64,000 nucleotides of DNA, from positions 62,001 through 126,000 of the forward strand of contig NZ_AULP01000009.1 of assembly GCF_000422345.1 (NCBI RefSeq), written 5' to 3'. The translations under genes and the position numbers were made by a program. Below, piece after piece: positions 96-17,974 of the stretch (positions within the stretch are counted from its first letter, which is position 1; every line of letters starts with the position of its first letter). This stretch comes from Neomelitea salexigens DSM 19753. Its GTDB lineage: Bacteria > Pseudomonadota > Gammaproteobacteria > Pseudomonadales > Spongiibacteraceae. Under the pieces are notes generated by a model. It did no database searches, was not told the origin of the DNA, and saw only the letters and a list, made by a program, of their open reading frames with translations.

Positions 96-147
96 TTGTG
101 CGCGATGGCGCGCAGATAATAATAAGCGTGTGCAAGAGAGGCCTGTT

Positions 148-2283: not shown

Positions 2284-2365
2284 GCGATGGCACGGGATTT
2301 GCCTCGCAGGGTTTGCCAACAATAAAAAAGATAACCATGTCCCATCGAATGCTGGAGAGCTGTGA

Positions 2366-4885
2366 ATGAAAACGAACAAAGCTGTGTTGTTCCCGCTGGC
2401 GATGTCTGCGCTATCGACGTTGTGTGTCGCGCCGAGTTTCGCGCAAACTGAAAATCGCGCCATGCTGGAAGAGGTAGTGGTCACCGCTCGGCGGCGTGAA
2501 GAGAGTTTGCAGGATACCCCGCTGGCGGTATCGGCGCTGGGCGCGGATATGCTTGAGCAAATGGGTATCAGCGATATTGAAGACGTGGAAACACTGGCGC
2601 CCAGCCTTCAGTTCTCGCAGACCAACTACAAAGCGCCGGCGGTCTTTATTCGCGGCATTGGCCAGCGCTCGGGCAATCCCGTGTTGGACCCTGGGGTGGG
2701 CATGTACTTGAACGGTGTCTATGTGCCGCGCTCTGATGCCCAGCTGCTCGATGCGGTTGATGTGGCATCGATACAGGTATTGCGGGGCCCTCAGGGCACA
2801 CTGTTCGGCAAGAACAATATTGGTGGCGCCATACTGGTAGATTCGAAAAAACCGTTTACCGACGGCTTTGAATTTGGCGCAAAACTTGGCGCGGGGAATT
2901 ACGGGCAGAAAAGTGCCAAGCTCGATGCCAACCTACCGCTCAGCGACAGCATCGCTATGCGTGTCGCGGTGAATGCCAAGCGCAGCGATGGCTCAATCGA
3001 TAATGTCGCCGCTGACTATGCGCTGTTTGATCAGGACCGCATGGCGGTGTCATCGCGGCTGATTTGGTATGTCAACGATGAGTTCGAAGTCGACGTCTTC
3101 GGCTTTTTAAGTCGCATCGATGAGCGCGGCTCACCCTACAACTGCGTTTTTCAAAACAGCAGTGCCATTCTTGCGCAGGGCATTTACCGAGGGGCTGATG
3201 GTTCGGATTTACAGGCCGCCTGTAACGAGAGCTCTGAATTAGCGAAAACCTTTAAGGTCAGTCAAACCGCGGAGGATGCGGTCTATGCGATCGACAACCA
3301 TATGCTGGCACTCACCTTGCGCGGCTCGGTTGCGGGAATAGATGTAGAGAGCATTACCAGCTACGCGATGCAGGACAATATCCGAATTAGTGGCGACTCT
3401 GATGGCACGGCGATTCGTGCAGTGGCGGTTGGCCCTGATGCCGGTTATCAGGTACTCAATGGCTCTGATGATCCGTCGGTCGGCGATGCTGTTCGCGAGC
3501 AATTCAGTCAGGAGGTGAAATTCAACGGCACCGCCTGGGACGATACCTTGAATTACACCTTTGGTGTGTTCTACGCCGAGGAGAGTTTGGAAAATAGCAT
3601 TGACGGCACCGAGGTGGGCGACAACGGCTTGGTGGCGGTAGGGCCGGGCGCTGCGGTTGATCTGGGCATTCCGCTTCCCAATGCCCTGGTGTTGCCCGTG
3701 CAGGCCAACGCCGTTGCCTTGGCCGACTACGAAAACACCACTGCGGCAGTGTTTGCGCAGGGAACATGGGATATGACCGAGACCCTGCAGCTGACATTGG
3801 GTTTGCGCTATACCGAAGAAGAGCGCAGTACGGTGCAAATTCAAGGCACGCCGGACTACGATGAATACGCGACTCGGCTCAATGCCCAGATTGGTAGCAA
3901 TCCCGCAATATTGCTGCCCGTCACCCATGTGATGGACGGTATTTTTTCGCCGGTGCCGCTGGCGCAGTATTTTGCCTATGAGGCGCCCTCGGTTCCTCTG
4001 CTGTATGCGGCGCCGCTGCGCGGTGATACGCGCTTCTCGGAATTTACGCCAGCGGTCACGCTCAATTACCTGGCCGATGATGAACTGCTTGAGTCCCTGA
4101 ATCTCGACAGCTTTATCGCCTATGCCACCGTGAGCAAGGGCTTTAAGTCGGGTGGTTTGGATGTGCGCTCGACGCAGACCGATTCGTCGATCAAGCAGTT
4201 TGAGCCTGAGATTGTCGTCAACAAAGAGATCGGTTTTAAATTAGATGCCTTGGATAGCCGCCTGCGTTTCAATGTGGCGGTGTTCCAGATGGATTACACC
4301 GATCTACAGGTCGCGCTTTATGAGCGCGGCACCACTCAAACAGAAGTGGTGCAGTTTACCGGCAATGCGGGCGAGGCCGTGGTCGACGGGTTTGAATTTG
4401 AGATTACCGCCCTGCTGGGGGATTTCACCATCAATGCCAATGCCGGGTATACCGACGGCGACTTTATTGACTATGACCTGGGTACCAATACCGCTGATGG
4501 CTTTGCGATTGTTGACCGCAGCGGCGAGGCGTTTCCCCAGGTGCCGCAAAATGTTCGCGGCGTTGTCGTGCAATATGATTGGCACTCGCCGATTGGTCTG
4601 ATTATTCCACAGCTGCAGTACTACTATTCCGATGAAATATTCATCGGTACGGATTACCTCAGCGGTGACTACGCGAGCTCGACCATCGGCCAGTACGAGC
4701 TTTTCAATGCCAGGGCGCGTTGGCAGATCAATGAACAGATGGGCGTATCGGCCTACGTGAATAACCTAAAAGATGACCCATACTTTGTTGGCGGGATCGC
4801 AGTAACCAGCGTGATCGGGGTTGCCAATCGCGTTCCCGGAACGCCGCGAGAGGTGGGCGTAGAGTTTAGCTACCAATTTCAATAA
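2366..4885 (+). CDS. TonB-dependent outer-membrane receptor
   Basis: The protein has 839 residues, in the usual range for TonB-dependent receptors. It starts with a Sec signal peptide ending near residues 25-27 (SFAQ). A TonB-box/plug region follows (LEEVVVTARRREESLQDTP, RGIGQR, LRGPQGTLFGKNNIGGAI), then a beta-barrel ending in an aromatic residue (YQFQ). Plug and barrel style match the large marine group often annotated for steroid, lipid or polyphenol uptake rather than classic siderophore receptors, but the ligand is not determinable. GGAGAG stands nine bases before the ATG. It follows the oxidoreductase by 82 bases in the same direction and may share its transcript. Confidence 0.95.
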   Translation: MKTNKAVLFPLAMSALSTLCVAPSFAQTENRAMLEEVVVTARRREESLQDTPLAVSALGADMLEQMGISDIEDVETLAPSLQFSQTNYKAPAVFIRGIGQRSGNPVLDPGVGMYLNGVYVPRSDAQLLDAVDVASIQVLRGPQGTLFGKNNIGGAILVDSKKPFTDGFEFGAKLGAGNYGQKSAKLDANLPLSDSIAMRVAVNAKRSDGSIDNVAADYALFDQDRMAVSSRLIWYVNDEFEVDVFGFLSRIDERGSPYNCVFQNSSAILAQGIYRGADGSDLQAACNESSELAKTFKVSQTAEDAVYAIDNHMLALTLRGSVAGIDVESITSYAMQDNIRISGDSDGTAIRAVAVGPDAGYQVLNGSDDPSVGDAVREQFSQEVKFNGTAWDDTLNYTFGVFYAEESLENSIDGTEVGDNGLVAVGPGAAVDLGIPLPNALVLPVQANAVALADYENTTAAVFAQGTWDMTETLQLTLGLRYTEEERSTVQIQGTPDYDEYATRLNAQIGSNPAILLPVTHVMDGIFSPVPLAQYFAYEAPSVPLLYAAPLRGDTRFSEFTPAVTLNYLADDELLESLNLDSFIAYATVSKGFKSGGLDVRSTQTDSSIKQFEPEIVVNKEIGFKLDALDSRLRFNVAVFQMDYTDLQVALYERGTTQTEVVQFTGNAGEAVVDGFEFEITALLGDFTINANAGYTDGDFIDYDLGTNTADGFAIVDRSGEAFPQVPQNVRGVVVQYDWHSPIGLIIPQLQYYYSDEIFIGTDYLSGDYASSTIGQYELFNARARWQINEQMGVSAYVNNLKDDPYFVGGIAVTSVIGVANRVPGTPREVGVEFSYQFQ

Positions 4886-4954
4886 ACTGTAATGCCGCCA
4901 GGCCCGAGGGTGGTTAAGCCATATACGGGCCTGCGTGTTGGTAAAGATGGACGC

Positions 4955-4971
4955 GGGCCGACAGTCGGCCC
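4955..4971. other. Perfect 7-bp hairpin between receptor and peptidase genes
   Basis: GGGCCGA and TCGGCCC pair perfectly around a 3-base loop (CAG). No T-run follows, so it is a weak candidate for an intrinsic terminator and could equally limit read-through or stabilise an mRNA end. It lies 21 bases before the peptidase start. Confidence 0.45.
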
Positions 4972-4992
4972 ACTAGAAATGGACGAGGAACT

Positions 4993-6456
4993 ATGAAGCG
5001 TATATTTGGCATGTTGCTGGGTGCAGTGCTGCTACTGACCGCGGTGCTGGTAATTCGCACACTGCAATTCGCGCCACCACAATTTGAGGCGAGCGAAATC
5101 TTGGCTGACGTTGATTGGTCAGAGGCGGAGTTGGCAGCGGGGCTTGCCGGAGCGCTGCGTTTTCCCACCATTTCGAATATCGATGCTGATGCCGTGGATC
5201 AGCAAGCATTTGAAGACTTTCAGGCCTATTTAAAACAGCGCTTCCCCAAGGTGTTTGCACAAATTCCCCACCAGCGCCTGCCCGGCGGTACCTTGCTGTT
5301 TCGCTGGTCGGGCAGCAGTGAAGCGTTAAAACCTATTATGCTGATTGCCCACCAAGACGTGGTGCCCGTGATACCGGGTACCGAAGATCAGTGGAGCTAT
5401 CCTCCCTTCGCGGGGACCATCGCCGATGGTTACATTTGGGGGCGGGGAGCAATCGACGACAAAGCCAGTGTGATCGGTATTGTAGAAGCCACTGAGCGTT
5501 TGCTTGAAGAGGGTTTTGTTCCGCCGCGCACGGTTTATTTGGGCTTTGGTCACGACGAAGAGGTGGGCGGCAAGGGTGCACAGGCCATGGCGGCACTGTT
5601 GGCTGAGCGTGGTGAGTCGCTGGCCTTCTTGCTAGATGAGGGCGGGGTGATCGCCAAGGACATGCTACCCGGTGTCGCGGAGCGCGTCGCATTGATTGGC
5701 CCGGCTGAAAAGGGCTATGTCAGTTTGAAACTCAGTGCCGACGGTGGCGGTGGTCACTCCTCCATACCACCGCCGCAAAGTGCGGCGGGCATTGTTGCGG
5801 CGGCAGTGGCGCGCCTCGAGGCCAATCCGCTACCTGCTGATATGCAATATACGGTGGACTTTATTCGCTATTTGGGTGACAGCGTACCTTTTTACCAACG
5901 CTTGCTGTTTGCCAATAACTGGCTGTTTGAGCCGCTTTTGGAAAAAGTACTGAGCAGTCAAGCGCCGATCAACGCCGGTATGCGCACGACGACGGCCGTT
6001 ACCATGTTGCAGGGCAGTGTGCGGGACAATGTACTGCCGATTATCGCCTATGCCGTGGTGAACTTCCGTATTCTTCCGGGCGATACGATTGATGGTGTGC
6101 AGCAGAAGGTGGCGGAGATCATTGATGATCCTCGCATTCGCATTGAGACCTACGGCGGCTTCGGCAACAATCCCTCTGCGGTGGCCTCGCCCGAATCGGC
6201 GGGTTTCAACGTACTCGCTGACCTCGTCCGACAAGTGAGTCCCGGCACCTTGGTAGCACCGCGGTTAGTGGTCGCGGCGACTGATGCCCGACACTTCGAG
6301 GAGGTATCGGAAAACAGTTATCGCTTTATCGGAGTAGAGGTTGGCCCAAAAGAAATGAAGGGTATTCACGGTACCGATGAGCGGGTCTCTATTGCCAGCT
6401 ATGTTGAGGCGGTGCGTATTTACTATCATCTTCTTCGCCGCAGCGCTGAATTATAG
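4993..6456 (+). CDS. Membrane-anchored M20 family metallopeptidase (CPS1/PM20D1-like)
   Basis: This 487-residue protein starts with a hydrophobic segment (residues 4-23) that would anchor it or act as a signal, placing the enzyme outside the cytoplasmic membrane. Dizinc M20 motifs are present: AHQDVV with the first metal His/Asp, RGAIDDK with the bridging Asp, GHDEEVGG with the catalytic Glu pair, DEGG, and HGTDERV near the C-terminus. The internal insert fits the dimerisation (lid) domain. The length and anchor resemble yeast carboxypeptidase S and the animal PM20D1 enzymes, which cleave and make N-fatty-acyl amino acids; bacterial relatives are mostly uncharacterised. GAGGA lies about five bases before the ATG. 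A terminator follows. Confidence 0.9.
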   Translation: MKRIFGMLLGAVLLLTAVLVIRTLQFAPPQFEASEILADVDWSEAELAAGLAGALRFPTISNIDADAVDQQAFEDFQAYLKQRFPKVFAQIPHQRLPGGTLLFRWSGSSEALKPIMLIAHQDVVPVIPGTEDQWSYPPFAGTIADGYIWGRGAIDDKASVIGIVEATERLLEEGFVPPRTVYLGFGHDEEVGGKGAQAMAALLAERGESLAFLLDEGGVIAKDMLPGVAERVALIGPAEKGYVSLKLSADGGGGHSSIPPPQSAAGIVAAAVARLEANPLPADMQYTVDFIRYLGDSVPFYQRLLFANNWLFEPLLEKVLSSQAPINAGMRTTTAVTMLQGSVRDNVLPIIAYAVVNFRILPGDTIDGVQQKVAEIIDDPRIRIETYGGFGNNPSAVASPESAGFNVLADLVRQVSPGTLVAPRLVVAATDARHFEEVSENSYRFIGVEVGPKEMKGIHGTDERVSIASYVEAVRIYYHLLRRSAEL

Positions 6457-6489
6457 GTGCTGCTTCTCGCCACTATTTCAGTGTGTTAT

Positions 6490-6515
6490 AGCGGGTAAAA
6501 AAAGCCCGCTTTTTG
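6490..6515 (+). terminator. Rho-independent terminator after the M20 peptidase
   Basis: AGCGGG at 6490-6495 pairs with CCCGCT at 6505-6510 around an A-rich loop and is followed directly by TTTTG. It lies 34 bases after the peptidase stop codon. Confidence 0.75.
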
Positions 6516-6625
6516 TTGTTGACGACCAAAAACGTCTATCCGTTCTTGGATTTTCTTACCGCTATTCTTATACATTGCCGCCCAAAGCGTGAAGCAGCGC
6601 TGTTTAATAGCCCGAGAGACTCCAC

Positions 6626-7621
6626 ATGCGTTATCCCGTTGATCCCCATTTCCCAGTGCGCGATGAAGATGCGTCACTGAAAGCTGACCTTGCTGAGCAA
6701 AAGGTAAAGCCGATATTTATTATGGGCTTGCACCGTTCCGGCACTACCTTTCTCTACGACAGTGTGGCCAGGGCCTTTCCTCTGGCACAGCTAACCCTCT
6801 ACGATTTTTTCTACTATGACCGTCTGCTCCGCAACCAACAGCAGGGCGGTGCGAAACAAGACGCGCAGCGCTTGAATGCCTGCTTCGCTGCACTGGGGAT
6901 TAAAGACCGCAATATCGACTCGGTGCCCGTTTCCGCCGAGGAAGTTGAAGAGTACGGCTATCTCCTCAGGCGTCGCTTCGGCAGTTTTAAGCTCAACGAG
7001 CACAGCGCCGAGTTTTTTGAGGAAATGTGCCGAAAGCTTTTGACCGTGCACGCCGGTAGTGAGGCGGTCTTGCTCAAGAACCCCTGGGATACCGGTAATG
7101 CGCGCTGGATGGCGGAGCGATTCCCCGAGGCGAGGTTTATCTACATCAGCCGTGAGCCCATCGCGGTGCTCAATAGCATGCTAAACGCGCTGCTTTCCTA
7201 TCTAGAGGGGCCGCAACATTATCTTGAAATGCTGTTGGACCGTGGGGACGGGCGCCGTAGTTATCGCGCTGGTTATATTGTGTGGCTGGGACTACGGGGA
7301 CTGCGCAAGCTGATTGGTCGCCGTGCCATTGCCCGCCTCGCGAGGCCGCTGCTGGCGCGAACGGTGGCCAAACAAGTGGCGGCCTACCGCCGCGAGTTGG
7401 CGGCAATGCCGGGCCATCAAACGGTCGAGGTGGATTATTCCGCGTTGCGAGAAAACCCTGACGCCGTGATGGAGAGTCTTGCGCCACTACTGGCGGTATC
7501 GCGTCGCGCCAGTGATGAAAACATGCGAGCGGTCACTGCCGAGCGGCCCGTTAATCCGGTTTTGCGCGATTACGCCGAGCATCTGGATAGGTTAGTGGAG
7601 CGAGAACTGGGCGCCGCTTGA
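6626..7621 (+). CDS. Sulfotransferase-family protein
   Basis: The 331-residue protein carries the PAPS-binding P-loop-like motif GLHRSGTT at residues 34-41 near its N-terminus. A second conserved stretch, FIYISREPIAVLNSML, matches the 3'-phosphate-binding strand and helix of the P-loop sulfotransferase family (Sulfotransfer_3 type). Such enzymes move sulfate from PAPS to hydroxyl or amino groups of lipids, sugars or small molecules. No signal peptide is seen, so it is probably cytoplasmic. GAGAG lies about eight bases before the ATG. It stands alone between two terminators, upstream of the peptide-synthetase cluster. Whether it modifies that product is open. Confidence 0.85.
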   Translation: MRYPVDPHFPVRDEDASLKADLAEQKVKPIFIMGLHRSGTTFLYDSVARAFPLAQLTLYDFFYYDRLLRNQQQGGAKQDAQRLNACFAALGIKDRNIDSVPVSAEEVEEYGYLLRRRFGSFKLNEHSAEFFEEMCRKLLTVHAGSEAVLLKNPWDTGNARWMAERFPEARFIYISREPIAVLNSMLNALLSYLEGPQHYLEMLLDRGDGRRSYRAGYIVWLGLRGLRKLIGRRAIARLARPLLARTVAKQVAAYRRELAAMPGHQTVEVDYSALRENPDAVMESLAPLLAVSRRASDENMRAVTAERPVNPVLRDYAEHLDRLVERELGAA

Positions 7622-7646
7622 TAAGGGATGCCCCCGTCATTCCCTC

Positions 7647-7670
7647 AAGGCCTGGAAACAGGCCTTATTC
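7647..7670 (+). terminator. Hairpin terminator after the sulfotransferase gene
   Basis: AAGGCCTG and CAGGCCTT form a perfect 8-bp stem closed by a GAAA tetraloop at 7655-7658. The T-tract after it is short (TTATTC), so termination may be partial. Confidence 0.6.
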
Positions 7671-7903
7671 ACCCGCAGATATTTCCCCTCATTGACAAAA
7701 AATATGCGCCATCGGCAGGGCGTTATTTACTTGTGTACGCATAAACCCCTATAGCTATTTTTAAGAGGCTGTATGGCAAGTGTTTTATTGCTCAAAAGCA
7801 CGCTATGACACATTAGGTGCGAATTGACTATGTCACACTCGTTTCCCAGTGTGCTGCAAGGTATTGAAATATAAGTAAAAATTCTTATCTCCATGTTCTT
7901 ATG

Positions 7904-7919
7904 TGTGACTTAAGTCACG
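7904..7919. promoter_or_regulatory. CRP/Vfr-like binding site
   Basis: TGTGA-N6-TCACG matches the CRP-family consensus TGTGA-N6-TCACA at nine of ten positions. Its core GTGACTTAAGTCAC is a perfect 14-base palindrome. It lies roughly 190 bases before the synthetase start. Confidence 0.5.
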
Positions 7920-7982
7920 CTGGTCGTTTAGTGATGTCCTTATCATCCCTGTGTGTCTTAGCGATTTACACATATAAAAATG

Positions 7983-7999
7983 CGGCTGCTTAACAGCCG
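7983..7999 (+). other. Leader hairpin upstream of the peptide synthetase
   Basis: CGGCTG and CAGCCG pair around a 5-base loop (CTTAA). The following AAATAAAAATG stretch is A-rich rather than T-rich on the plus strand, so this is not a terminator for a plus-strand transcript. Confidence 0.35.
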
Positions 8000-8090
8000 A
8001 AATAAAAATGAAAAAATTAAGCAGGGGCTGTTTCCGATTCGTCGGTAGGTTTCCTGTTTAGTGCGATACCTAGCCAGAGAGACGAAGAAG

Positions 8091-11000
8091 ATGGAAAAGT
8101 TACCCCGCTCGCAAAATTCGCGAGACCCGTACCTGAGAAAGGACCTTGAAGCCGAGCTGCATTTAAGCCGGGGTAAAGTTGCCACAGGCGGCGCACTTGA
8201 GTTGCCAGCCTCACCCGTTAGACCTCTGACGCAGGTTCCCCAACTTCTGCCAATTGCAACAGCGCAGCGCGGTATGTGGATGGGCGAGAAGATCGGCCCC
8301 GCCGATGCGGTATATAAACTTGCCGAGTATGTCGATATCCGCGGCCATATTGATGCCGCGGTATTTCTCCGCGCGACTTCCATCTTGACCCAAGAGGCGG
8401 AGTCAACGCGAGTACAGATTATTGAAACCGCCGATGGACCTCGCCAATTGGTGGCAGAGGCCTATATGGGAGAGTTGCCGGTTGTCGACTTCAGTAGCCA
8501 TGCCGACGCCGAGCAGCGTGCATTGCGGTGGATGAACGATGAGCTGCGCCGCCCCGCAGACCTCGCAGAAGATGCACTGTGGTTCAGCGCGCTAATCAAG
8601 GTCGAGGATGAACGGTTTTTTTGGTACCACCGCTGCCACCACATCACCATTGACGGTTTTGGTGGCGGTCTGATCGCGCGCCGAATGGCAGAAATTTATA
8701 ATGCGCTGCTCAGTGGCGAGGAGCTAGGTGAGTCGCCATTTTTACCCTTGGTAACCCAGTTGGAGCAGGAAAAGCTCTATCGCGAATCTGCGCGTTTTGA
8801 GCGCGACCGAGATTACTGGAAGCAGCAACTGAGTGGCTTGCCCGATGCAATTTCGCTGTCGCGTCGCAATGCCCAGCGCAGTGGTGGCCTGCGGCGCAGC
8901 GGTATTACCCTGTCGCTAGAGCACTCTGCGAAAATTCGCGACATCGCCCAGCAATATGGCGGCTCAGTACCGCAGTTATTAATTGCCATGCTCGCGGTTT
9001 ACACCTACCGCATGACGGGTCAGCAGGACCTGGTCTTCGGTATGCCGGTTACGGCACGAGCAAACCGCACGCTGCGCAGCATCCCGGCAATGATGGCCAA
9101 CGCCGTGGCGATTCGCCTGGCGATGGCCGACGATGCTAGCCTTGTCGACCTGCTTGGGCAAACAGCGAAAACCGTAAGGAATGCGCTTCGCCACCAGCAG
9201 TATCGCTATGAGGAGCTGCGGCGTGATCTCGGCCTGCTTGCACAGGGGCAGCAGATCTCCTGGATGGGAGTGAATATTGAACCCTTTGATTACGACCTGG
9301 GCTTCGGTGGCCACGAGTGCAGTGCACACAACCTGTCGAATGGCACCGTAGAAGACATGACAGTGTTTGTGTTTGATCGCGGTGCCAAGCAGGGCATGAA
9401 TGTGGTGATTGACGCTAACCCCGCGCTTTACAGTCAGCGAGAGCTCGATGAGCACCGCGATCGATTGGCGCGATTAATCGAAGCGATGATTGCCGCCCCT
9501 GAGGGCGCGATCGGTGACTTTGACCTGCTCTCCGAGCAGGAGCGGCACCTGCAGCTGCAGGCCTGGAACGATACCAAGCAGCCGTTGCCGGACAGCCACT
9601 TGCCAGCGTTGTTTGACAAAAGTGTCGCCGCTTTCCCAAGCCACGCCGCGGTATCTGACGCCGGGCAAACGCTGAGTTATTCAGCGTTCGGGCAACAGGT
9701 CAATCAATTGGCCCGGGCATTGAATGTATTGGGCGTAGGGCCGGGTAAGTTGGTGGCCGTGTCCCTGCCGCGCACCGCGGCAATGCCGATGACGCTGTTG
9801 GCGATTATGAAGTGCGGAGCGGCGTATTTACCGCTGGATCCAGAAACCCCCGCTGAGCGCCTGGCCATGATATTGGACGACGCCAAGCCCAGCTTGCTGC
9901 TCAGCAGCGTTGAGACCGCCGAAAAGTTGCCTGACTGTGAAATACAAGCGCTGCTGTGGGAAGAGCTCAACTTAAACGCCTTTTCCGGCGACGATGTGCC
10001 CCTTGCTGATATTGGCGCAAACAGTCCGGCGTACATCATTTACACCTCCGGTTCGACGGGGCGCCCCAAGGGCGTGGTGATTGGCCATCGCAGCTTGATG
10101 AATTTTTTGCTGGCCATGCAGGATGCCTTGGCACTTCAACCCGAGCAGCGGATGTTGGCGCTAACGACCGTGTCGTTTGATATAGCTGCGCTAGAGATGT
10201 TTTTGCCACTGCTTGCCGGTGCTCAAGTCCATGTCGCTACCCGCGACATCGCCAGAGACCCGGCGGCGCTGGCCGCGCTGGTGAATGAGCAGGCGATCAC
10301 GCATATTCAAGCGACGCCTTCGCACTGGCAGGCGCTGCTTGAAGATAATACCGAGGCCTTTACGGGTGTTCAACCGCTGGTGGGCGGTGAGGCGCTGCCG
10401 ATGGAGCTGGCGCGCAAAATGCGTAAGCTCGGAGCGCCGATTATCAACTTATACGGCCCGACAGAGACAACGATCTGGTCCACGATGATGACTCTGGACA
10501 AGCTGGACGGTGGGACGCCGGCCATTGGTCGTCCGATCTGGAATACGCAGGTCTATGTACTGGGTGACGACCTTCAGTTGTTGCCAAATGGCGCTGCCGG
10601 GGAATTGTACATTGGCGGAGAAGGCCTCGCGCTGGGTTACCACAAACGTCCCGACTTAACCGCCGAACGTTTTATTGCCAATCCTCACGGCGAGGGCTTG
10701 TTGTACAAAACCGGTGACCTTGCGCGCTGGCGTGATGACGGTGCACTGGAATACCTGGGACGCAATGACTTCCAGATTAAAATTCGCGGCTTTCGTGTAG
10801 AGACTGAAGAAATTGAATCGCAGTTGATCCGCTGTCAGGGTGTGCGCCGTGCGGCGGTGGTACTGCGTAATGACCCCGCTGGCGTACCAAAGCTGGTGGC
10901 GTTCCTGCTCGGTGAGGAGGACTTCGATGCCCAGCACACTGCCTTGGAGGCTGCCACACTGCGCCAACAGATCGAGCGCAGTCTAGCGGAATACATGCTG

Positions 11001-12146
11001 CCCTCTCACTATCAGGTGCTGGATGATTTCCCGCTGAATGTGAATGGCAAGCTAGACCGCAAAGCCTTGCCGGAGCCTCAGTGGCAACTTGTTAGCGAAT
11101 ACACGGCGCCGCGCAATGCGCTGGAAACGCAGCTGGCCGAGTTGTGGTGTGAAATTTTCAAACTGCCGCGTATCGGCATCCACGATAGCTTTTTCGACCT
11201 GGGTGCTGACTCGATTACCGCGGCGCGTATGGTATCGCGTCTGCGTGATGTCGTGGGTAAAGACGTACCCCTGGCGGCCATCTTTGAGGCGACGACGATC
11301 GCTGAATTGGCGGAGCAGCTGGAGCGCGGTGACCAAATAGACCCCTTGGCAGGCGTGCAAGCCCTCAACCCCTTAGCCGCGCGTGGCGAGGGTGACGCTC
11401 TATTTTGTATTCACCCGGTACTCGGCTTGAGCTGGGGATTCGCGGGGCTAAATCAATACCTGCCTGAAGATACGGCCTTGTTTGGCATTCAGTCGCGTGG
11501 CCTCTCTGGCGGGCAAGAGCTGCCTGCGAGTATCGAGGAAATTGCCGCAGACTATATTGCATTGATGCGGGACCGCCAGCCACAGGGCCCCTACCGTATA
11601 TTGGGCTGGTCGATGGGCGGCGTTATCGCCCAGGAAATGGCGCGTCAGCTGCGCGAGCTGGACGAGTCAGTGAGTTTCCTTGGCGCTTTGGATTCCTACC
11701 CCTTTGTGTCGCAGCAGCGTGATGACAAGGCCGGTCAGGTGCGCAGCATATTGGAATTTCTCGACATTGCGGTAGAAGGCGAGCTGCCCGATACCATGGA
11801 GGAGCTGAGTGAACTCCTGTGCCGCGAATACGACGTGCTTAACCTGGAGTTTGTCAAACAGTTGCAGGGTAAACAAAGCGCCTTAATTGACGATGTCAGT
11901 GCGGTGATTAGCAATAACCTGCAGCTGTTGCAGAATTTCCAGCCGCGACCTGTAGACGTGGACATGCATTTTTTCCAAGCGCTGCAAACGGCCACATCAC
12001 AGCAGCTGCATCACCGCCCAGATGCCTGGCAGGACGCCGTCGCGGGTCTCAATATTTATCCGGTGGAATGCCACCACCAACAGATGCTGGACGCGGAACC
12101 GCTGGCAGTAATCGGACCCTTTGTTAAGCGCGCGCTGGCAGGTTGA
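8091..12146 (+). CDS. Single-module nonribosomal peptide synthetase C-A-T-TE, predicted glycine-activating
   Basis: The 1351-residue enzyme has EntF architecture. The condensation domain (about 50-490) starts with an EntF-like LPIATAQRGMWMGEK and has active site HHITIDG near 183-189. The adenylation domain (about 500-1000) has YTSGSTGRPKG, LYGPTETT, YKTGDLARW and NGKLDRKAL. The carrier domain has DLGADS, with the attachment Ser near 1040. The thioesterase has GWSMGG (Ser near 1174) and a late His. Aligned to GrsA, the pocket residues read D-I-L-Q-L-G-L-I-W-K, the code recalled for glycine. A condensation domain at the front needs an acyl or aryl donor from elsewhere, and no EntE/EntB partner is present. 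The frame opens at a GTG at 8061; the ATG at 8091 is preferred but lacks a strong ribosome site. Confidence 0.93.
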   Translation: MEKLPRSQNSRDPYLRKDLEAELHLSRGKVATGGALELPASPVRPLTQVPQLLPIATAQRGMWMGEKIGPADAVYKLAEYVDIRGHIDAAVFLRATSILTQEAESTRVQIIETADGPRQLVAEAYMGELPVVDFSSHADAEQRALRWMNDELRRPADLAEDALWFSALIKVEDERFFWYHRCHHITIDGFGGGLIARRMAEIYNALLSGEELGESPFLPLVTQLEQEKLYRESARFERDRDYWKQQLSGLPDAISLSRRNAQRSGGLRRSGITLSLEHSAKIRDIAQQYGGSVPQLLIAMLAVYTYRMTGQQDLVFGMPVTARANRTLRSIPAMMANAVAIRLAMADDASLVDLLGQTAKTVRNALRHQQYRYEELRRDLGLLAQGQQISWMGVNIEPFDYDLGFGGHECSAHNLSNGTVEDMTVFVFDRGAKQGMNVVIDANPALYSQRELDEHRDRLARLIEAMIAAPEGAIGDFDLLSEQERHLQLQAWNDTKQPLPDSHLPALFDKSVAAFPSHAAVSDAGQTLSYSAFGQQVNQLARALNVLGVGPGKLVAVSLPRTAAMPMTLLAIMKCGAAYLPLDPETPAERLAMILDDAKPSLLLSSVETAEKLPDCEIQALLWEELNLNAFSGDDVPLADIGANSPAYIIYTSGSTGRPKGVVIGHRSLMNFLLAMQDALALQPEQRMLALTTVSFDIAALEMFLPLLAGAQVHVATRDIARDPAALAALVNEQAITHIQATPSHWQALLEDNTEAFTGVQPLVGGEALPMELARKMRKLGAPIINLYGPTETTIWSTMMTLDKLDGGTPAIGRPIWNTQVYVLGDDLQLLPNGAAGELYIGGEGLALGYHKRPDLTAERFIANPHGEGLLYKTGDLARWRDDGALEYLGRNDFQIKIRGFRVETEEIESQLIRCQGVRRAAVVLRNDPAGVPKLVAFLLGEEDFDAQHTALEAATLRQQIERSLAEYMLPSHYQVLDDFPLNVNGKLDRKALPEPQWQLVSEYTAPRNALETQLAELWCEIFKLPRIGIHDSFFDLGADSITAARMVSRLRDVVGKDVPLAAIFEATTIAELAEQLERGDQIDPLAGVQALNPLAARGEGDALFCIHPVLGLSWGFAGLNQYLPEDTALFGIQSRGLSGGQELPASIEEIAADYIALMRDRQPQGPYRILGWSMGGVIAQEMARQLRELDESVSFLGALDSYPFVSQQRDDKAGQVRSILEFLDIAVEGELPDTMEELSELLCREYDVLNLEFVKQLQGKQSALIDDVSAVISNNLQLLQNFQPRPVDVDMHFFQALQTATSQQLHHRPDAWQDAVAGLNIYPVECHHQQMLDAEPLAVIGPFVKRALAG

Positions 12147-12151
12147 TAAGC

Positions 12152-13465
12152 ATGAAAATCGCGATCTTCTCCATCGGCACCCAGGGAGATGTCCGCCCTT
12201 TTGTCGCGCTAGGCTTGGGCTTGCAAGCGCAGGGGCACCAAGTGTGTATTGTGACGGGCGACAGCTGTGAACAGTTGGTACGCCGTCATGGCCTCGATTA
12301 CGCGCCGCTGACCGCCGACTTTTTGGAAGTAATGGCCAAGGACCCGGAAGTACTTCAGCGCGGCCTGAACCCCGTTGCGCTTTTGCGTACGGCGCGGCGG
12401 GAGTTGTTGGCAATGTCTGCAGACTGGGTCACACAGGCCACGCAGGCGGCGAACGGCGCTGACTTGTTGTTGGGTTGCGGCATGGTGGCCTCGCTGGCCG
12501 CCGCCATGGGCGAACGCTACGACATTCCGGTGGTCGAGACCCACTTGCAACCGGTGACGCCGTGTCCTGATATTCCGCCGATGATGTTGCCACCGCCGCG
12601 CCGCCCGCGCCCCGGTCTGGTAAACCAAGGCTTGTATCACGCCTGTCGCGTGCTGACGTGGCAGATGCTCAGCCCCGCCTATCGTCAGGTTCGTGAAAAA
12701 CTCAATTTGGCGCCACTGCCCTGGTATGGGCCGTTTTACCGGCGTCGTCGGACTCACCATGTGTTGTATGGGTTTAGCCCGAGCATTATTCCGCCATCGC
12801 GTTATTGGCCAGAGTCGGTGCGGATAGCGGGGAACTGGTTTCTCGATGAAGCTCAGACGTGGCAGGCGCCGGAATCACTGGACGCATTTTTAGCCGCCGG
12901 GGACAAACCCATATATGTGGGCTTTGGCAGCATGCTCGGTGATGACAGTGCGGCGCTCAGTGAGGTGTTTTTAAAGGCGCTGAGAAATAGTGGCCGCCGC
13001 GCCATTTTTGCAACAGGTTGGGGAGGCTTGGCAGATGTCGACGACGACAATGTGTACTGCCTGACATCGGCGCCTCACGACTGGCTGTTTCCGCGAGTGG
13101 CAGCGGCCATTCACCACGGCGGGGCGGGTACGACGGCGGCAGCGGCAAGGGCGGGAATTCCGTCGATAATTATGCCGTTTTTTGGCGATCAGCCATTTTG
13201 GTCGTGGCGCTTGCAGCAACTTGGGGTGGCAACCCCTTCGCTGGATCGCAACAGCTTGAATGTCGCGGATGTTGAGCGGGCTATTGAGTCGGCAACAGAC
13301 GCGGCGCTGCGTCAGCGTGCAGCTACTGTGGGTGAGCAAATGCGCGCCGAAGATGGCGTGGCGGCGGCCATAGCGCAGTTGTCCACGTGGGGCTACCTGT
13401 CCCCCGTCAGTGAGTCAAGCCCCGCCGTTGATCGCGACCTTACCGAGCCCAGCCTTGCGCAATAG
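12152..13465 (+). CDS. GT1/GT28-type glycosyltransferase (sterol/macrolide UDP-sugar transferase-like)
   Basis: This 437-residue GT-B enzyme starts with the acceptor-domain signature MKIAIFSIGTQGDVRPF and carries the nucleotide-sugar signature HHGGAGTTAAAARAGIP followed by PFFGDQPFW, where the acidic/Gln pair usually contacts the sugar. This pattern is typical of sterol 3-beta-glucosyltransferases, macrolide glycosyltransferases and rhamnosyltransferase-like bacterial enzymes. The ATG at 12152 lies five bases after the synthetase stop, so the two are almost certainly co-translated and a glycosylated product is likely. A TTG at 12143 in frame is a less likely start. The sugar donor and acceptor cannot be read from sequence. 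Confidence 0.9.
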   Translation: MKIAIFSIGTQGDVRPFVALGLGLQAQGHQVCIVTGDSCEQLVRRHGLDYAPLTADFLEVMAKDPEVLQRGLNPVALLRTARRELLAMSADWVTQATQAANGADLLLGCGMVASLAAAMGERYDIPVVETHLQPVTPCPDIPPMMLPPPRRPRPGLVNQGLYHACRVLTWQMLSPAYRQVREKLNLAPLPWYGPFYRRRRTHHVLYGFSPSIIPPSRYWPESVRIAGNWFLDEAQTWQAPESLDAFLAAGDKPIYVGFGSMLGDDSAALSEVFLKALRNSGRRAIFATGWGGLADVDDDNVYCLTSAPHDWLFPRVAAAIHHGGAGTTAAAARAGIPSIIMPFFGDQPFWSWRLQQLGVATPSLDRNSLNVADVERAIESATDAALRQRAATVGEQMRAEDGVAAAIAQLSTWGYLSPVSESSPAVDRDLTEPSLAQ

Positions 13466-14183
13466 TGGCGCGGACACGCAGAGCTTGTCATCACCCCTGC
13501 CCGCAGGTGGATTTATAGAGCAGGTCTCGTTGCTGCCAATGCCCGAATTGGCCGTCAACGCGGTTCACTGTCGTTTTAAACAAAGCCGTTATACCCGAGA
13601 CCTGTTGGCGTCTTGGGGCATTGCATTACCAGCCTCTTTGGCGCGGGTGTCCGCCGTGCGCCAAGCGCAATTCCTTGCCGGTCGTTATGCTGCTTGTTAT
13701 GCGCTGGGTTTAGAAAATGTAGAGAATCGCAGCCCAGCAAGGCGAGATACCGGCGAGGTGATATGGCCGCAGGGGATTACCGGTTCCATCAGCCATTGCG
13801 ACGACAGCGCGCTGTGCGTGGTTGGGCGTGGAGGGCATTTGGGGATCGATATTGAGCCATTAGTCGCCAGCGATGCCATTGACGAGCTGTGGCGTTTGGT
13901 GGGTGATGACAAGGAGTGGCAGCTCCTATCTCGATTGCCTCGCGATTGCGCGTTAACTCTGCTGTTTTCTGCCAAAGAGAGCTTGTACAAAGCGCTGTTC
14001 CCGCGCTTGCAGCGCTACATCGATTTTTCCGAAGTGCGTGTTATCGCGGTCGACCTGGAGCGGCGTACGCTCCAGTTCAAGCCGCGCTCCGCACTGGGTT
14101 TGGCCTTGCCAAGGGGCTGCATATTTACGGTGTATTGGCAGTGGCTGGGAGAGCGCTGCCTAAGTTACACGCGCTGCGACTAG
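13410..14183 (+). CDS. 4'-phosphopantetheinyl transferase (EntD-like)
   Basis: The protein converts apo carrier domains to the holo form by attaching the CoA phosphopantetheine arm. EntD/Sfp signatures are visible: GSISHC with its conserved His, GIDIE with the Mg-binding acidic pair, and FSAKESLYKALFP with the K-E-x3-K motif. The open frame begins at a GTG at 13410, overlapping the glycosyltransferase end by 56 bases; the true start may be further in, since EntD homology only begins around residue 40. Its place directly behind the synthetase and glycosyltransferase implies that it activates the carrier domain of this cluster. Its stop overlaps the stop of nhaC on the other strand. Confidence 0.92.
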   Translation: MSQAPPLIATLPSPALRNSGADTQSLSSPLPAGGFIEQVSLLPMPELAVNAVHCRFKQSRYTRDLLASWGIALPASLARVSAVRQAQFLAGRYAACYALGLENVENRSPARRDTGEVIWPQGITGSISHCDDSALCVVGRGGHLGIDIEPLVASDAIDELWRLVGDDKEWQLLSRLPRDCALTLLFSAKESLYKALFPRLQRYIDFSEVRVIAVDLERRTLQFKPRSALGLALPRGCIFTVYWQWLGERCLSYTRCD

Positions 14184-15604
14184 GCCTCTTCTATCGCTAT
14201 GTTGAAGCGCATATACAGCATCGACATAAAGGGGCTGATCAAATTAAAAAAGCAAAAGGGCAGGTAGCTGAGCGTTGCAACGCCGAGAGCGGTGGCATGA
14301 AATGCGCCGCAGGTGTTCCAGGGAACCAGTACTGAGGTGGCGGTTCCGGCGTCTTCCAGCGTGCGGCTGAGGTTGCGCTGACTCAGCCCCTGCTGGGCGT
14401 ACATGTCGCCGTACATTCGCCCGCCAATAAGAATGGTCAGATACTGCTCGGCCGCCGTGAGATTGAGCACCCCACAGCTGCCAGCCGTGGTTGCCACGAG
14501 CGACGTCCGGCTGCGCGCCAGTCTTTTTAGTCCGCTTGTAATGTCGCCGAGCAAGCCCGAGGCTTCCATCATGCCACCGAAAACCACGGCGCTTAAAATA
14601 AGCCATATTGTATTGAGCATGCCTGCCATGCCGCTGCTGGCCAGCAAGGTATCGCTAAAGCTGTGACCGGTGATGATCTCGCTACTTCCTACAATGGTTT
14701 GCACCAGCCCCTTGTACAGCCCACTTGCCGAACGCTCGCCACCAATTTGATAGACCAATTCCGGCTGCACATAGGCGGAGATCACCGTGCCGATGAGCGT
14801 TGCAATAAACATCACGGGCAGCGCCGGAACGCGTTTTACGATCATGACAACGACGAGCAGCGGCGCAAGCAATAGCCAGCCCGACAGGGTCATGCTGGTG
14901 CTCAAGGCATTCATAATCGCTTGCGTCTCGGCGACCTCCCTTCCACTGCTGTGGTGTATACCCAGCCCAACAAAAATAAGCAGGGCAATGGCAAACGAGG
15001 GCAGTGTGGTGAGGGCGAGGTAGCGCACGTGACTGAACAACTCGACATTGCACACACCTGCGGCCAGGTTGGTGGTATCGGAAAGGGGGGAGAGTTTGTC
15101 GCCAAAGTAGGCGCCAGAGATCACGGCTCCCGCGGTAATGGCTTCACTCATACCGAGCCCCGCCCCGGTTGCCATCATGGCAATGCCGATGGTGGCCGCA
15201 GTGGTCCAGGAACTGCCAATGGCCGTTGACACAATGGCGCAGACAATTGCCGCGGCAGCATAAAACCAACTGGGGTCGGCCAGTTGCAATCCATAGTAGA
15301 TAAGCGTCGGTACAATACCGGCGACCGTCCAAGTGCTGGATAGCGCACCAATCATAAACAGCATTAAGATGGGGATGATCGCAACGCCGATTACTTTTAG
15401 CATGCCGTCTTGCAGGGTTTGCCAGGAGCGGCCGCGGTGCAGGCCGATAACGGCCGCGACGCCGCCCCCGAGCAGCAGTGCCAGCTGGTTGGGGCCTTCT
15501 ATACCGGCATCGCCGTAGAGATAGACATTGAGACCGAGCAGGCCGATTACCAAGCATAGCGGGAGGAGTGCTATGCCGACATGATTAGAGCGGGCTGGGG
15601 TCAT
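14180..15604 (-). CDS. nhaC: Na+/H+ antiporter, NhaC family
   Basis: This 474-residue polytopic membrane protein has about 11-12 hydrophobic segments and NhaC-family signatures such as GSSWTTAATIGIA, the GAYFGDKLSPLSDTTNLAA block, and LVPWNTCGAFHATALG near the C-terminus. Family members exchange cytoplasmic sodium for protons, which fits a marine organism. It converges on the phosphopantetheinyl transferase: the two stop codons overlap within a CTAG. A strong hairpin separates it from the P450 gene upstream, so it is probably its own transcription unit. No strong ribosome site is visible before the ATG. Confidence 0.92.
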   Translation of the reverse strand: MTPARSNHVGIALLPLCLVIGLLGLNVYLYGDAGIEGPNQLALLLGGGVAAVIGLHRGRSWQTLQDGMLKVIGVAIIPILMLFMIGALSSTWTVAGIVPTLIYYGLQLADPSWFYAAAAIVCAIVSTAIGSSWTTAATIGIAMMATGAGLGMSEAITAGAVISGAYFGDKLSPLSDTTNLAAGVCNVELFSHVRYLALTTLPSFAIALLIFVGLGIHHSSGREVAETQAIMNALSTSMTLSGWLLLAPLLVVVMIVKRVPALPVMFIATLIGTVISAYVQPELVYQIGGERSASGLYKGLVQTIVGSSEIITGHSFSDTLLASSGMAGMLNTIWLILSAVVFGGMMEASGLLGDITSGLKRLARSRTSLVATTAGSCGVLNLTAAEQYLTILIGGRMYGDMYAQQGLSQRNLSRTLEDAGTATSVLVPWNTCGAFHATALGVATLSYLPFCFFNLISPFMSMLYMRFNIAIEEA

Positions 15605-15661
15605 TGGCTACCACACATTGCTGTTTGTTGTTTGTAGTGGCCAGAATAGCGGGCGCGTTGC

Positions 15662-15684
15662 GGTGGCGCCACTTTGGCGCCACC
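15662..15684 (-). terminator. 9-bp perfect hairpin between P450 and nhaC genes
   Basis: GGTGGCGCC and GGCGCCACC pair perfectly around ACTTT. It lies eight bases past the P450 stop on the minus strand and before the nhaC start. No T-run follows in the minus direction, so it may act as a weak terminator or mRNA 3'-end stabiliser. Confidence 0.5.
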
Positions 15685-15692
15685 ACAGAGGC

Positions 15693-16940
15693 TTAGCGGT
15701 TGGTTTTTACCCGCAGGGATTTAAAGCTAATGGAGTTGTGGTCCTCCAGGTCGCGCTCGGGCTCCTCTGCCAGTGTGGCATTGGGGAACTGGCGGAAAAA
15801 CTCGCGCATACTCAAGTAAAGCTGATGTTTTGCCAGCGCGGCACCGATGCAATAGCGAGGGCCATAGCCAAAGAGTACGTCGGGATTGAACTCGCGGCGT
15901 ACATCCAGGCGGTAGGGGTCGTCGAAAAAATCGGGGTCGTGATCTTTTAAGTGGGGCATCATTAACACCATTTGCCCTTTTTTCACTTGCTGCCCAAGCA
16001 GTTCACGGTCTTCTGGTACGTAGCGGGCGAAGCCCATCTTCGAGTTGCCTGCCCAGCGCATAATTTCGCTAAAGGCATTAGAGAAGGTGGCGGTAGACTC
16101 CAGTGCCAGGGGGATCTGATCTGGGTTCTTCAGAAAGGCATAGGCCGACCACTGTTGAGCCATCAGTGTGGTGTCGGCGCCGGCGCCGATCAGTGCCAGG
16201 ATCAAGGTAACGATATCCCACTCGTCGAAATCGTCATTTTCCGCTTCCACTTGCAGCAGCGCGCTGAGGAAGTCCTCTTCACCTACAGGTGACAGGCGGC
16301 GCTCGGCGATGACTTCCAGCAAGATGTCGATGGCCAGGTTGCTGTCTTGCTGGGCTTTTTCCCTGCGCTCATCGGAGATGGTCGGGTTCCAGGTTTCGGT
16401 AAAGGTCAGCACCGTCTGCTTGATCTGGGGCCAGTATTTTTCTGGAATACCCACCATGCGAGTGATGGAGATAAAGGGGATGTGTCGCGCGACATCTTCA
16501 ATGTAGTCGAATTCATCGGCGTCTTTTAAGCCCTCGAAAAGGCGGACGATATCGGGCTCGATGCGTCGGTTGATGTTATCAACAACATTGCGAGAAAACG
16601 CCGGGGAGGTGATCTTGCGAATAAGGCGGTGGTGGTCAGGGTCAGCCAGCAGGCTGTGACCCACCAGGGCGCGCTCGAAGTTATTCCAGTTTTCTTCCAG
16701 TGGCCGTGGCGGCGCAAACTCCCAGTCGTAAAAGTCTGAACTCAGGTACTCATTCTTCCAGCAGTCCATGATGTCCGGCATGCGGGTCATAATCCAGCAC
16801 ATCCAGGGGGCGTACCATACTAGTCGGCCGCGCTCAGAAAGCGCTTTGCATTGGGGGCCGGGGTCCATGGCGTATTCCATGGAATTAGGGTTGAAGATCG
16901 ATTCGATCGGGGGCAGTTCCTGCTGTTCAGTGGTTTGCAT
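15693..16940 (-). CDS. Cytochrome P450
   Basis: The ATG at 16940 has AAGGAG eight bases upstream and starts a normal 415-residue soluble bacterial P450, so it is preferred over the longer open frame beginning at 17042. Seen motifs are the I-helix oxygen-activation segment GAGADTT, the K-helix ExxR (EIMR), and the heme loop FGYGPRYCIG with the thiolate Cys near residue 364. It would hydroxylate a hydrophobic substrate using electrons from a ferredoxin and reductase, neither of which is in the window. It is divergent from an SDR-TetR pair across a palindrome. Co-location with a KshA-like Rieske oxygenase hints at a steroid or terpenoid substrate, which is inference. Confidence 0.93.
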   Translation of the reverse strand: MQTTEQQELPPIESIFNPNSMEYAMDPGPQCKALSERGRLVWYAPWMCWIMTRMPDIMDCWKNEYLSSDFYDWEFAPPRPLEENWNNFERALVGHSLLADPDHHRLIRKITSPAFSRNVVDNINRRIEPDIVRLFEGLKDADEFDYIEDVARHIPFISITRMVGIPEKYWPQIKQTVLTFTETWNPTISDERREKAQQDSNLAIDILLEVIAERRLSPVGEEDFLSALLQVEAENDDFDEWDIVTLILALIGAGADTTLMAQQWSAYAFLKNPDQIPLALESTATFSNAFSEIMRWAGNSKMGFARYVPEDRELLGQQVKKGQMVLMMPHLKDHDPDFFDDPYRLDVRREFNPDVLFGYGPRYCIGAALAKHQLYLSMREFFRQFPNATLAEEPERDLEDHNSISFKSLRVKTNR

Positions 16941-17011
16941 TGCGTACACTCCTTTATCTTTATTGTTAAACGCCGCCGCCAAGGCACGCGAAATACTGCG
17001 CTGTTTGCGAA

Positions 17012-17033
17012 AAAATATACTACCGTGTATTTT
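17012..17033. promoter_or_regulatory. Near-perfect palindrome in the divergent P450/SDR promoter
   Basis: Arms AAAATATAC and GTGTATTTT match as reverse complements at eight of nine positions around TACC. The site sits 71 bases before the P450 ATG and 62 bases before the SDR ATG. A TATACT hexamer lies within it at 17016-17021. The TetR gene two positions downstream is the natural candidate to bind here and control both directions. Confidence 0.5.
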
Positions 17034-17095
17034 TATTCTCAAGTGACATTATTTTTAATTACCGCGCGTCGCGGCGATAACAATAAGGAGCAGTA

Positions 17096-17974
17096 ATGCA
17101 AAACTTTACAGACAAGGTAGCGGTAATAACCGGCGGGGCCAGTGGTGTGGGGCGCGCATTGGCGCTCGCGCTTGCCGATGAAGGCGCCAGACTGGTGATT
17201 GCAGACATCGAAGAAAATGCCTTGCAGCGCTGCAAAGCGGAATTGGAGGAGCGCGGAGCCCAGTGTTTAGCGCAACGCGCCGATGTTACGCAGCCGGAGT
17301 CGATGGCGGCCCTCGCTGAGGCGGCGTTTACACACTTTTCTTCCGTGCACCTCGTTTTTGCAAACGCCGGTGTGGGGACGGGCGAAGGTGGCAATATGTG
17401 GGAGTACAGCGCCAATGATTGGGAGTGGGGCTTTCGGGTAAATACCTGGGGCTTGATCAACACCATTAACGCCTTCGTCCCGCGCTTGGTGGAGCAAGGT
17501 GAAGAGGCGCACTTTGTGGTGACGGGCTCAGGGAATGGTGCCTTTTTGGTGCTGCCAGACACACCGATCTACACCGCGACCAAGGCAGCGGCGCAGGCGA
17601 TTACGGAAAACCTGCATTTTCAGTTGCAGGCCCAGCAATCGCCGGTGAAGGTCAATGCCCTGTTCCCCGGCCCGCATGTGGTGAATACCGGCATCTTTAA
17701 CTCTGAGCGCAATCGCCCAGAGGATTTGCCCGTCGACCCGAACAAGCCCGATTCGGGTATTCACTCGGTCGATGATATGAAGGCGATCATGGCGCAATAC
17801 GATATGGAGTTGAAAACCACCGAGCCGGATGAAGTTGCTGCGTTTGCGCTCAACGGGCTGCGCGAAGACAAGTTTTGGATTACGCCAATGTCGGAGAAGT
17901 CCAGAGCTGCCTTTATTGAGCGCACCCAGGGCATTCTAAATGGGGTTACACCAACGCCGCCGAACGTACTGTAG
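17096..17974 (+). CDS. Short-chain dehydrogenase/reductase (SDR)
   Basis: This 292-residue classical SDR has the cofactor motif TGGASGVG at residues 12-19, an Asp at the end of strand 2 (IADIEE) that favours NAD(H), and catalytic Ser and Y159-x3-K163 (YTATK). It interconverts an alcohol and a ketone on a small hydrophobic substrate. AAGGAG lies eight bases before the ATG. It leads the SDR-TetR pair and is divergent from the P450 gene, so it may oxidise the hydroxyl group made by the P450. The substrate is unknown. Confidence 0.92.
   Translation: MQNFTDKVAVITGGASGVGRALALALADEGARLVIADIEENALQRCKAELEERGAQCLAQRADVTQPESMAALAEAAFTHFSSVHLVFANAGVGTGEGGNMWEYSANDWEWGFRVNTWGLINTINAFVPRLVEQGEEAHFVVTGSGNGAFLVLPDTPIYTATKAAAQAITENLHFQLQAQQSPVKVNALFPGPHVVNTGIFNSERNRPEDLPVDPNKPDSGIHSVDDMKAIMAQYDMELKTTEPDEVAAFALNGLREDKFWITPMSEKSRAAFIERTQGILNGVTPTPPNVL

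Follow-up and report, generated by a model that had tools for sequence, protein, structure and literature searches.

A predicted sulfotransferase linked to a one-module glycine peptide synthetase, a glycosyltransferase and a phosphopantetheinyl transferase in the Spongiibacter group

What would a peptide synthetase (NRPS) of a single module make when it is followed by a glycosyltransferase (GT) and a phosphopantetheinyl transferase (PPTase), with no partner enzyme in view to supply its acyl group? The question is raised by a locus in a 64,000-nucleotide stretch of the genome of the marine bacterium Neomelitea salexigens DSM 19753, referred to here as the window. We examined the domains of the cassette, the likely substrates of the module, the conservation of the gene neighbourhood and the published systems that the cassette resembles.

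Genes and domains of the cassette

The features of the cassette are collected in Table 1. The NRPS reading frame spans 8061-12146, opening at a GTG at 8061, with an ATG at 8091. Pfam places a single Condensation, AMP-binding, PP-binding and Thioesterase domain in it, each above cut-off, which bears out the one C-A-T-TE module of an earlier, sequence-only reading of this DNA. Each of the four domains retains its active-site motifs, among them HHxxxDG, GxDS and GWSxGG. That reading had also placed the GT five bases past the NRPS and an EntD-like PPTase overlapping the GT. Both placements hold: the NRPS frame closes at 12146 and the GT ATG follows five bases further on, at 12152 (an alternative TTG at 12143 would overlap the NRPS), and the PPTase frame begins at 13410, before the GT ends at 13465. 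The EntD score of the PPTase is below the cut-off of that equivalog (169 bits; NCBIfam).

Table 1. Positions of the cassette genes and NRPS domains in the window
Feature	Position	Strand	Basis and remarks
Predicted sulfotransferase (Sulfotransfer_3, 331 aa)	6626..7621	+	First cassette gene; Pfam PF13469, E 1.7e-16
One-module NRPS, C-A-T-TE	8091..12146	+	Pfam; NCBIfam EntF 728 bits, far under cut-off of 2400
Starter-type condensation domain of NRPS	8247..9548	+	PDB match RzmA; C-domain tree; residue 148
Adenylation domain of NRPS, code DILQLGLIWK	9612..11051	+	Pfam and alignment
Carrier (T) domain of NRPS	11130..11318	+	Pfam; one of just two carriers genome-wide
Type I thioesterase domain of NRPS, GWSMGG	11400..12143	+	PF00975, E 3.2e-29; motif conserved
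GT1 glycosyltransferase	12152..13465	+	EryCIII-like_C, Glyco_transf_28, UDPGT (Pfam)
Sfp/EntD-like 4'-phosphopantetheinyl transferase	13410..14183	+	4PPT_N and ACPS; NCBIfam EntD 87 bits

Amino acid code, condensation domain and acyl donor

Alignment of the adenylation (A) domain gave the pocket residues D-I-L-Q-L-G-L-I-W-K, the same ten that had been read by eye, and no different code emerged. We take this to be a glycine code. It is identical in 16 Spongiibacter-group homologues (48-100% identical) but for three with V at position 330; the NRPS of Spongiibacter marinus DSM 17750 is 99% identical to that of the window. The glycine reading is supported by the Gly signature reported for the Xanthomonas albilineans synthetase XALc_0364.

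Among solved structures, the condensation (C) domain matched the RzmA starter domain with 263 bits, ObiF1 with 192, EntF with 187, CDA with 169 and VibH with 120. In a maximum-likelihood tree, which has several long branches and in which the finer joins are unsure, the C domains of the glycine modules formed one clade (100/99), sister to a starter domain from Variovorax. The LCL domains were separate (100/100), and the catecholate domains lay with CDA in another clade (99/94). The C domain of the window is thus of starter type.

The length of the acyl chain can be approached through RzmA, where residue 148 acts as a gate: with R at this position the domain uses C2, the R148G change gives C8-C10, and R148G combined with Y138A lengthened the chains to C10-C12 (PMC7804268). 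The equivalent of residue 148 is Gly or Ala in 20/20 C domains of the glycine clade and bulky in 8/9 catecholate or Ser-type controls; the equivalent of residue 138 is Cys, Ser, Val or Ala in all 20. By analogy with this one characterised family, the small residues at both positions point to a C domain that would admit acyl chains that are medium or long and come from CoA or AcpP.

We then considered which protein could present the acyl group. A census of the whole genome found two carrier domains, the T domain of the NRPS and an 83-residue AcpP, and seven further cassette genomes (eight altogether) held the same two kinds only. As a positive control, the search detects a carrier in the reading frame immediately upstream of a Ser-code NRPS in another genome (G169), so that an EntB-like carrier would be visible. 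With two carriers only, there is no dedicated donor carrier. The census, the starter-type C domain and the search for a DHB-AMP ligase support the earlier proposal that the acyl chain is taken from CoA or a fatty-acid carrier, and the donor is predicted to be CoA or AcpP.

These data bear directly on whether the enzyme is a catecholate siderophore synthetase of the EntF/DhbF/MxcG kind, joining DHB to glycine with the DHB genes lying elsewhere. The NRPS does share full-length similarity with EntF (728 bits) and MxcG (699 bits) in NCBIfam, as well as the C-A-T-TE architecture and EntD-like PPTase of the enterobactin system. DHB-glycine occurs in bacillibactin, which provides a precedent for such a product. 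However, EntF has a Ser code and a DHB-type C domain, whereas the window has a glycine code, a C domain outside the catecholate clade and, in keeping with the sequence-only reading, no recognisable EntA, EntB, EntC or EntE-type gene in a scan of ten window proteins (130-17974). Genome-wide, the top match to a DHB-AMP ligase reached 210 bits, where the cut-off is 724, and the census, which detected a carrier in the control genome, found no aryl carrier. Glycine also lacks the hydroxyl needed for a trilactone. A DHB donor is rejected on the census together with the ligase search, and the catecholate explanation as a whole, already largely refuted, is very improbable.

The sulfotransferase and the surroundings of the cassette

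The 5'-PSB motif 'GLHRSGTT' of the sulfotransferase is invariant across 21 homologues, as are R176 and S184 of the 3'-PB. A sequence search of the PDB with this protein gave zero matches, but a fold search did match: the AlphaFold2 model (pLDDT 90.7) had M. tuberculosis STF1 as its top PDB fold (E 3e-7). The genome also encodes an APS kinase for the supply of PAPS. By its motifs, modelled fold and this kinase, the protein is a PAPS-type sulfotransferase, with its activity predicted. Decarboxylation by a sulfotransferase and TE of the curacin type was considered and dropped because glycine has no beta-hydroxyl.

We compared the cassette neighbourhoods in 15 Spongiibacter-group genomes. The sulfotransferase, NRPS and GT genes occur in the same order and on the same strand in all 15, with the sulfotransferase immediately upstream of the NRPS, and the PPTase gene adjoins the GT gene in 13. 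The NRPS-GT-PPTase set is upheld by synteny in the relatives; the count of three genes is not, as the sulfotransferase is an equally constant fourth. Across 21 genomes of the family, its ortholog is found in 15/15 genomes that bear the NRPS and in 0/6 that lack it (p 1.8e-5 for random assortment, uncorrected for kinship). Sulfotransferase, NRPS (49%) and GT genes are also adjacent in a genome from a different family (G329), a grouping that suggests transfer between families. Two genomes from yet another family carry a sulfotransferase homologue between an unrelated GT1 gene and a gene for a VTT-domain membrane protein, with the NRPS absent (L114 5436-8672 and L115 1414-4603). The presence of a homologue beside a different GT1 without an NRPS makes sugar-directed sulfation more likely.

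The searches were also extended to more distant sequences. When the class was searched for further cassettes, the extra single-module NRPS matches that were checked were Ser-code or non-starter and had no GT-model match, and so did not represent this cassette. Plasmid searches found relatives in Pseudosulfitobacter and Variovorax but no four-gene set and no sulfotransferase match. On the Pseudosulfitobacter plasmid pDSM107133_h, a lone single-module glycine-code NRPS adjoins cyoABCD and zinc transport genes (L144 8959-12933). The Variovorax paradoxus plasmid CP063167.1 encodes a C-A(Ser code)-T-C-A-T-reductase NRPS with GT1 and MbtH genes after it (L146 7968-16776), and its starter C domain is the sister to the cassette clade. 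A Rhizobium lusitanum GT (46%) had no adjoining NRPS. One genome with a full cassette (G020) also carries a second NRPS-GT pair, the NRPS being 53% identical with the same Gly code, without a sulfotransferase or PPTase (L047 7868-13221).

Single-module NRPS genes with the Gly code (45-46%) were also found in genomes G351 and G142, within an operon of Peripla_BP_2, FecCD, ABC ATPase and cupredoxin genes (L135 2916-11866, which also has an MFS gene, and L136 7788-15893), a possible metallophore context. As these relatives sit in an iron or metal uptake operon without a GT and sulfotransferase, this type of NRPS may serve more than one product.

The flanks of the cassette itself vary by clade. 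Around the clade of the window there are genes for a molybdopterin oxidoreductase, a TonB receptor and an M20 peptidase. In another Spongiibacter clade (L039-L045) the cassette has as neighbours an integrase gene and genes for metal efflux (copper P-type ATPase, RND and cation-efflux types), a setting that resembles a metal-resistance island.

Such surroundings could indicate an amphiphilic metal binder, taken up through the TonB receptor at 2366-4885. This receptor is siderophore-like and lies two genes upstream of the sulfotransferase, the efflux genes adjoin the cassette in the one clade, and the G142 and G351 relatives keep the company described above. Set against this, only the two nearest relatives retain the receptor next to the cassette, a more distant receptor being near the second, sulfotransferase-less copy, and the FecBCD-linked relatives have neither the GT nor the sulfotransferase. 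The predicted product carries no chelating group, and the DNA upstream of the cassette lacks a convincing Fur box. Regulation by Fur as in a siderophore locus was rejected: upstream of the Spongiibacter cassette genes only weak matches of 11-13/19 were found, and 16/19 was reached only in the FecBCD-type relative G351. We regard a metallophore as quite unlikely.

Predicted product and published relatives

The sequence-only reading held that a pathway of this kind would be new, and this was not sustained. Royer et al. (2013) described a short C-A-PCP-TE NRPS, a GT and a contiguous PPTase in the oil-degrading Alcanivorax borkumensis (ABO_1784/1783/1782), and already predicted a beta-hydroxyacyl-glycine glycoside as the product, in which glycine is linked to a glycosyl residue and to a beta-hydroxy-carboxylic acid (PMC3849588). 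The strain SK2 genes follow the same order as those of the window, with the GT at the 3' end of the NRPS. In Xanthomonas, the same source reports short one-module NRPS genes that overlap a GT gene, with starter C domains and one Gly signature (PMC3849588). The X. albilineans pairs XALc_0364/0365 and XALc_1145/1144 thus resemble the window, with the difference that, in the text available, a PPTase and sulfotransferase are unreported for the pairs and one copy has a non-Gly code. The window cassette shares with these short systems the single module, starter C domain, glycine A domain, abutting GT and, as in A. borkumensis, contiguous PPTase.

The lipid of A. borkumensis has been on record since 1998. 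It is a glycine-glucolipid composed of glucose, four 3-hydroxy fatty acids and an amide-linked glycine (PMC10710537, PMC10684412), and its amino acid matches the code of the window. In 2023 its pathway was termed unresolved in one of these two papers, with ABO_1783 as candidate GT; the other speculates that glycine first joins a 3-hydroxy fatty acid and that glucose is added last. As far as the consulted parts of these sources go, neither a sulfotransferase nor a sulfated congener is mentioned for Alcanivorax, and the likeness to the window rests on the published architecture. The window cassette fits the Alcanivorax system closely, so that its core is of a known kind; the linked sulfotransferase appears to be the new element.

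We propose that the cassette probably makes a glycine-containing glycolipid of the Alcanivorax type, extended by sulfation. The following scheme builds on direct observations: the domain composition with its motifs, the A-domain code for glycine, the clade of the starter C domain, the missing aryl carrier, the four-gene linkage and the APS kinase. The PPTase would prime the T domain, and the A domain would load glycine. The starter C domain would take a medium-to-long acyl chain, most likely a 3-hydroxyacyl group, from CoA or AcpP, and the resulting acyl-glycine would be released by the TE. GT1 would then add a sugar, most likely onto the 3-hydroxyl in the manner of RhlB, and the sulfotransferase would transfer sulfate from PAPS to the product, with the sugar as the most likely site. 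We infer the length of the acyl chain and its 3-hydroxyl, which sugar is added, in what order the steps run, where the sulfate sits, the final product and a surfactant or cell-envelope role.

The model enzymes also differ from the window. RzmA, the top solved match of the C domain, and HolA, whose small gate residue it shares, start multi-module lipopeptides, whereas the window module is single and ends in a TE. RhlB is the GT that acts on 3-hydroxyacyl lipids in rhamnolipid formation, and ABO_1783 is described as RhlB-like (PMC10710537), whereas the nearest solved structure to the window GT is yeast sterol 3-beta-glucosyltransferase (195 bits).

The last point leaves room for a simpler product, in which the NRPS makes plain N-acyl-glycine, serving as a signal or as a lipid of the membrane. 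The GT and sulfotransferase would then have a different substrate, or would esterify the carboxylate of glycine with a sugar instead of forming an O-glycoside. One module and a TE would suffice for this; the nearest solved relatives of the GT act on sterols and glycopeptides, so that it may use another acceptor; and distant Gly-NRPS genes exist without a GT or sulfotransferase. However, both of these genes are fixed neighbours of the NRPS in 15/15 genomes, and the published Alcanivorax product unites sugar, hydroxyacyl and glycine in one molecule (PMC10684412, PMC10710537). We consider plain N-acyl-glycine unlikely. The glycosylated N-acyl-glycine first proposed for this locus thus stands as the likely product in its acyl-glycine glycoside part, and is amended to an Alcanivorax-type compound that is probably also sulfated.

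A bolder claim is that the Spongiibacter group makes sulfo-glycine-glycolipids, sulfated acyl-glycine glycosides that would form a new family, by a four-gene sulfotransferase-NRPS-GT-PPTase pathway, with a single module drawing the hydroxyacyl group directly from primary metabolism, through AcpP or CoA. We see the case for and against this as evenly balanced. The comparative evidence ties the compact NRPS-GT-PPTase set to acyl-glycine chemistry and names CoA or AcpP as its likely donor. The strictly linked sulfotransferase predicts sulfated congeners, and the cassette enzymes are candidates for biosurfactant production.

Other genes were noted near the cassette. Amide hydrolases occur there in different clades, an M20 peptidase in the window (4993-6456) and a penicillin acylase elsewhere (L040 16908-19202), and may reflect turnover of acyl-glycine or chance. 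A cytochrome P450 gene (15693-17042) adjoins an SDR gene (17096-17974) in the window, and the two nearest relatives also keep it close to their cassettes.
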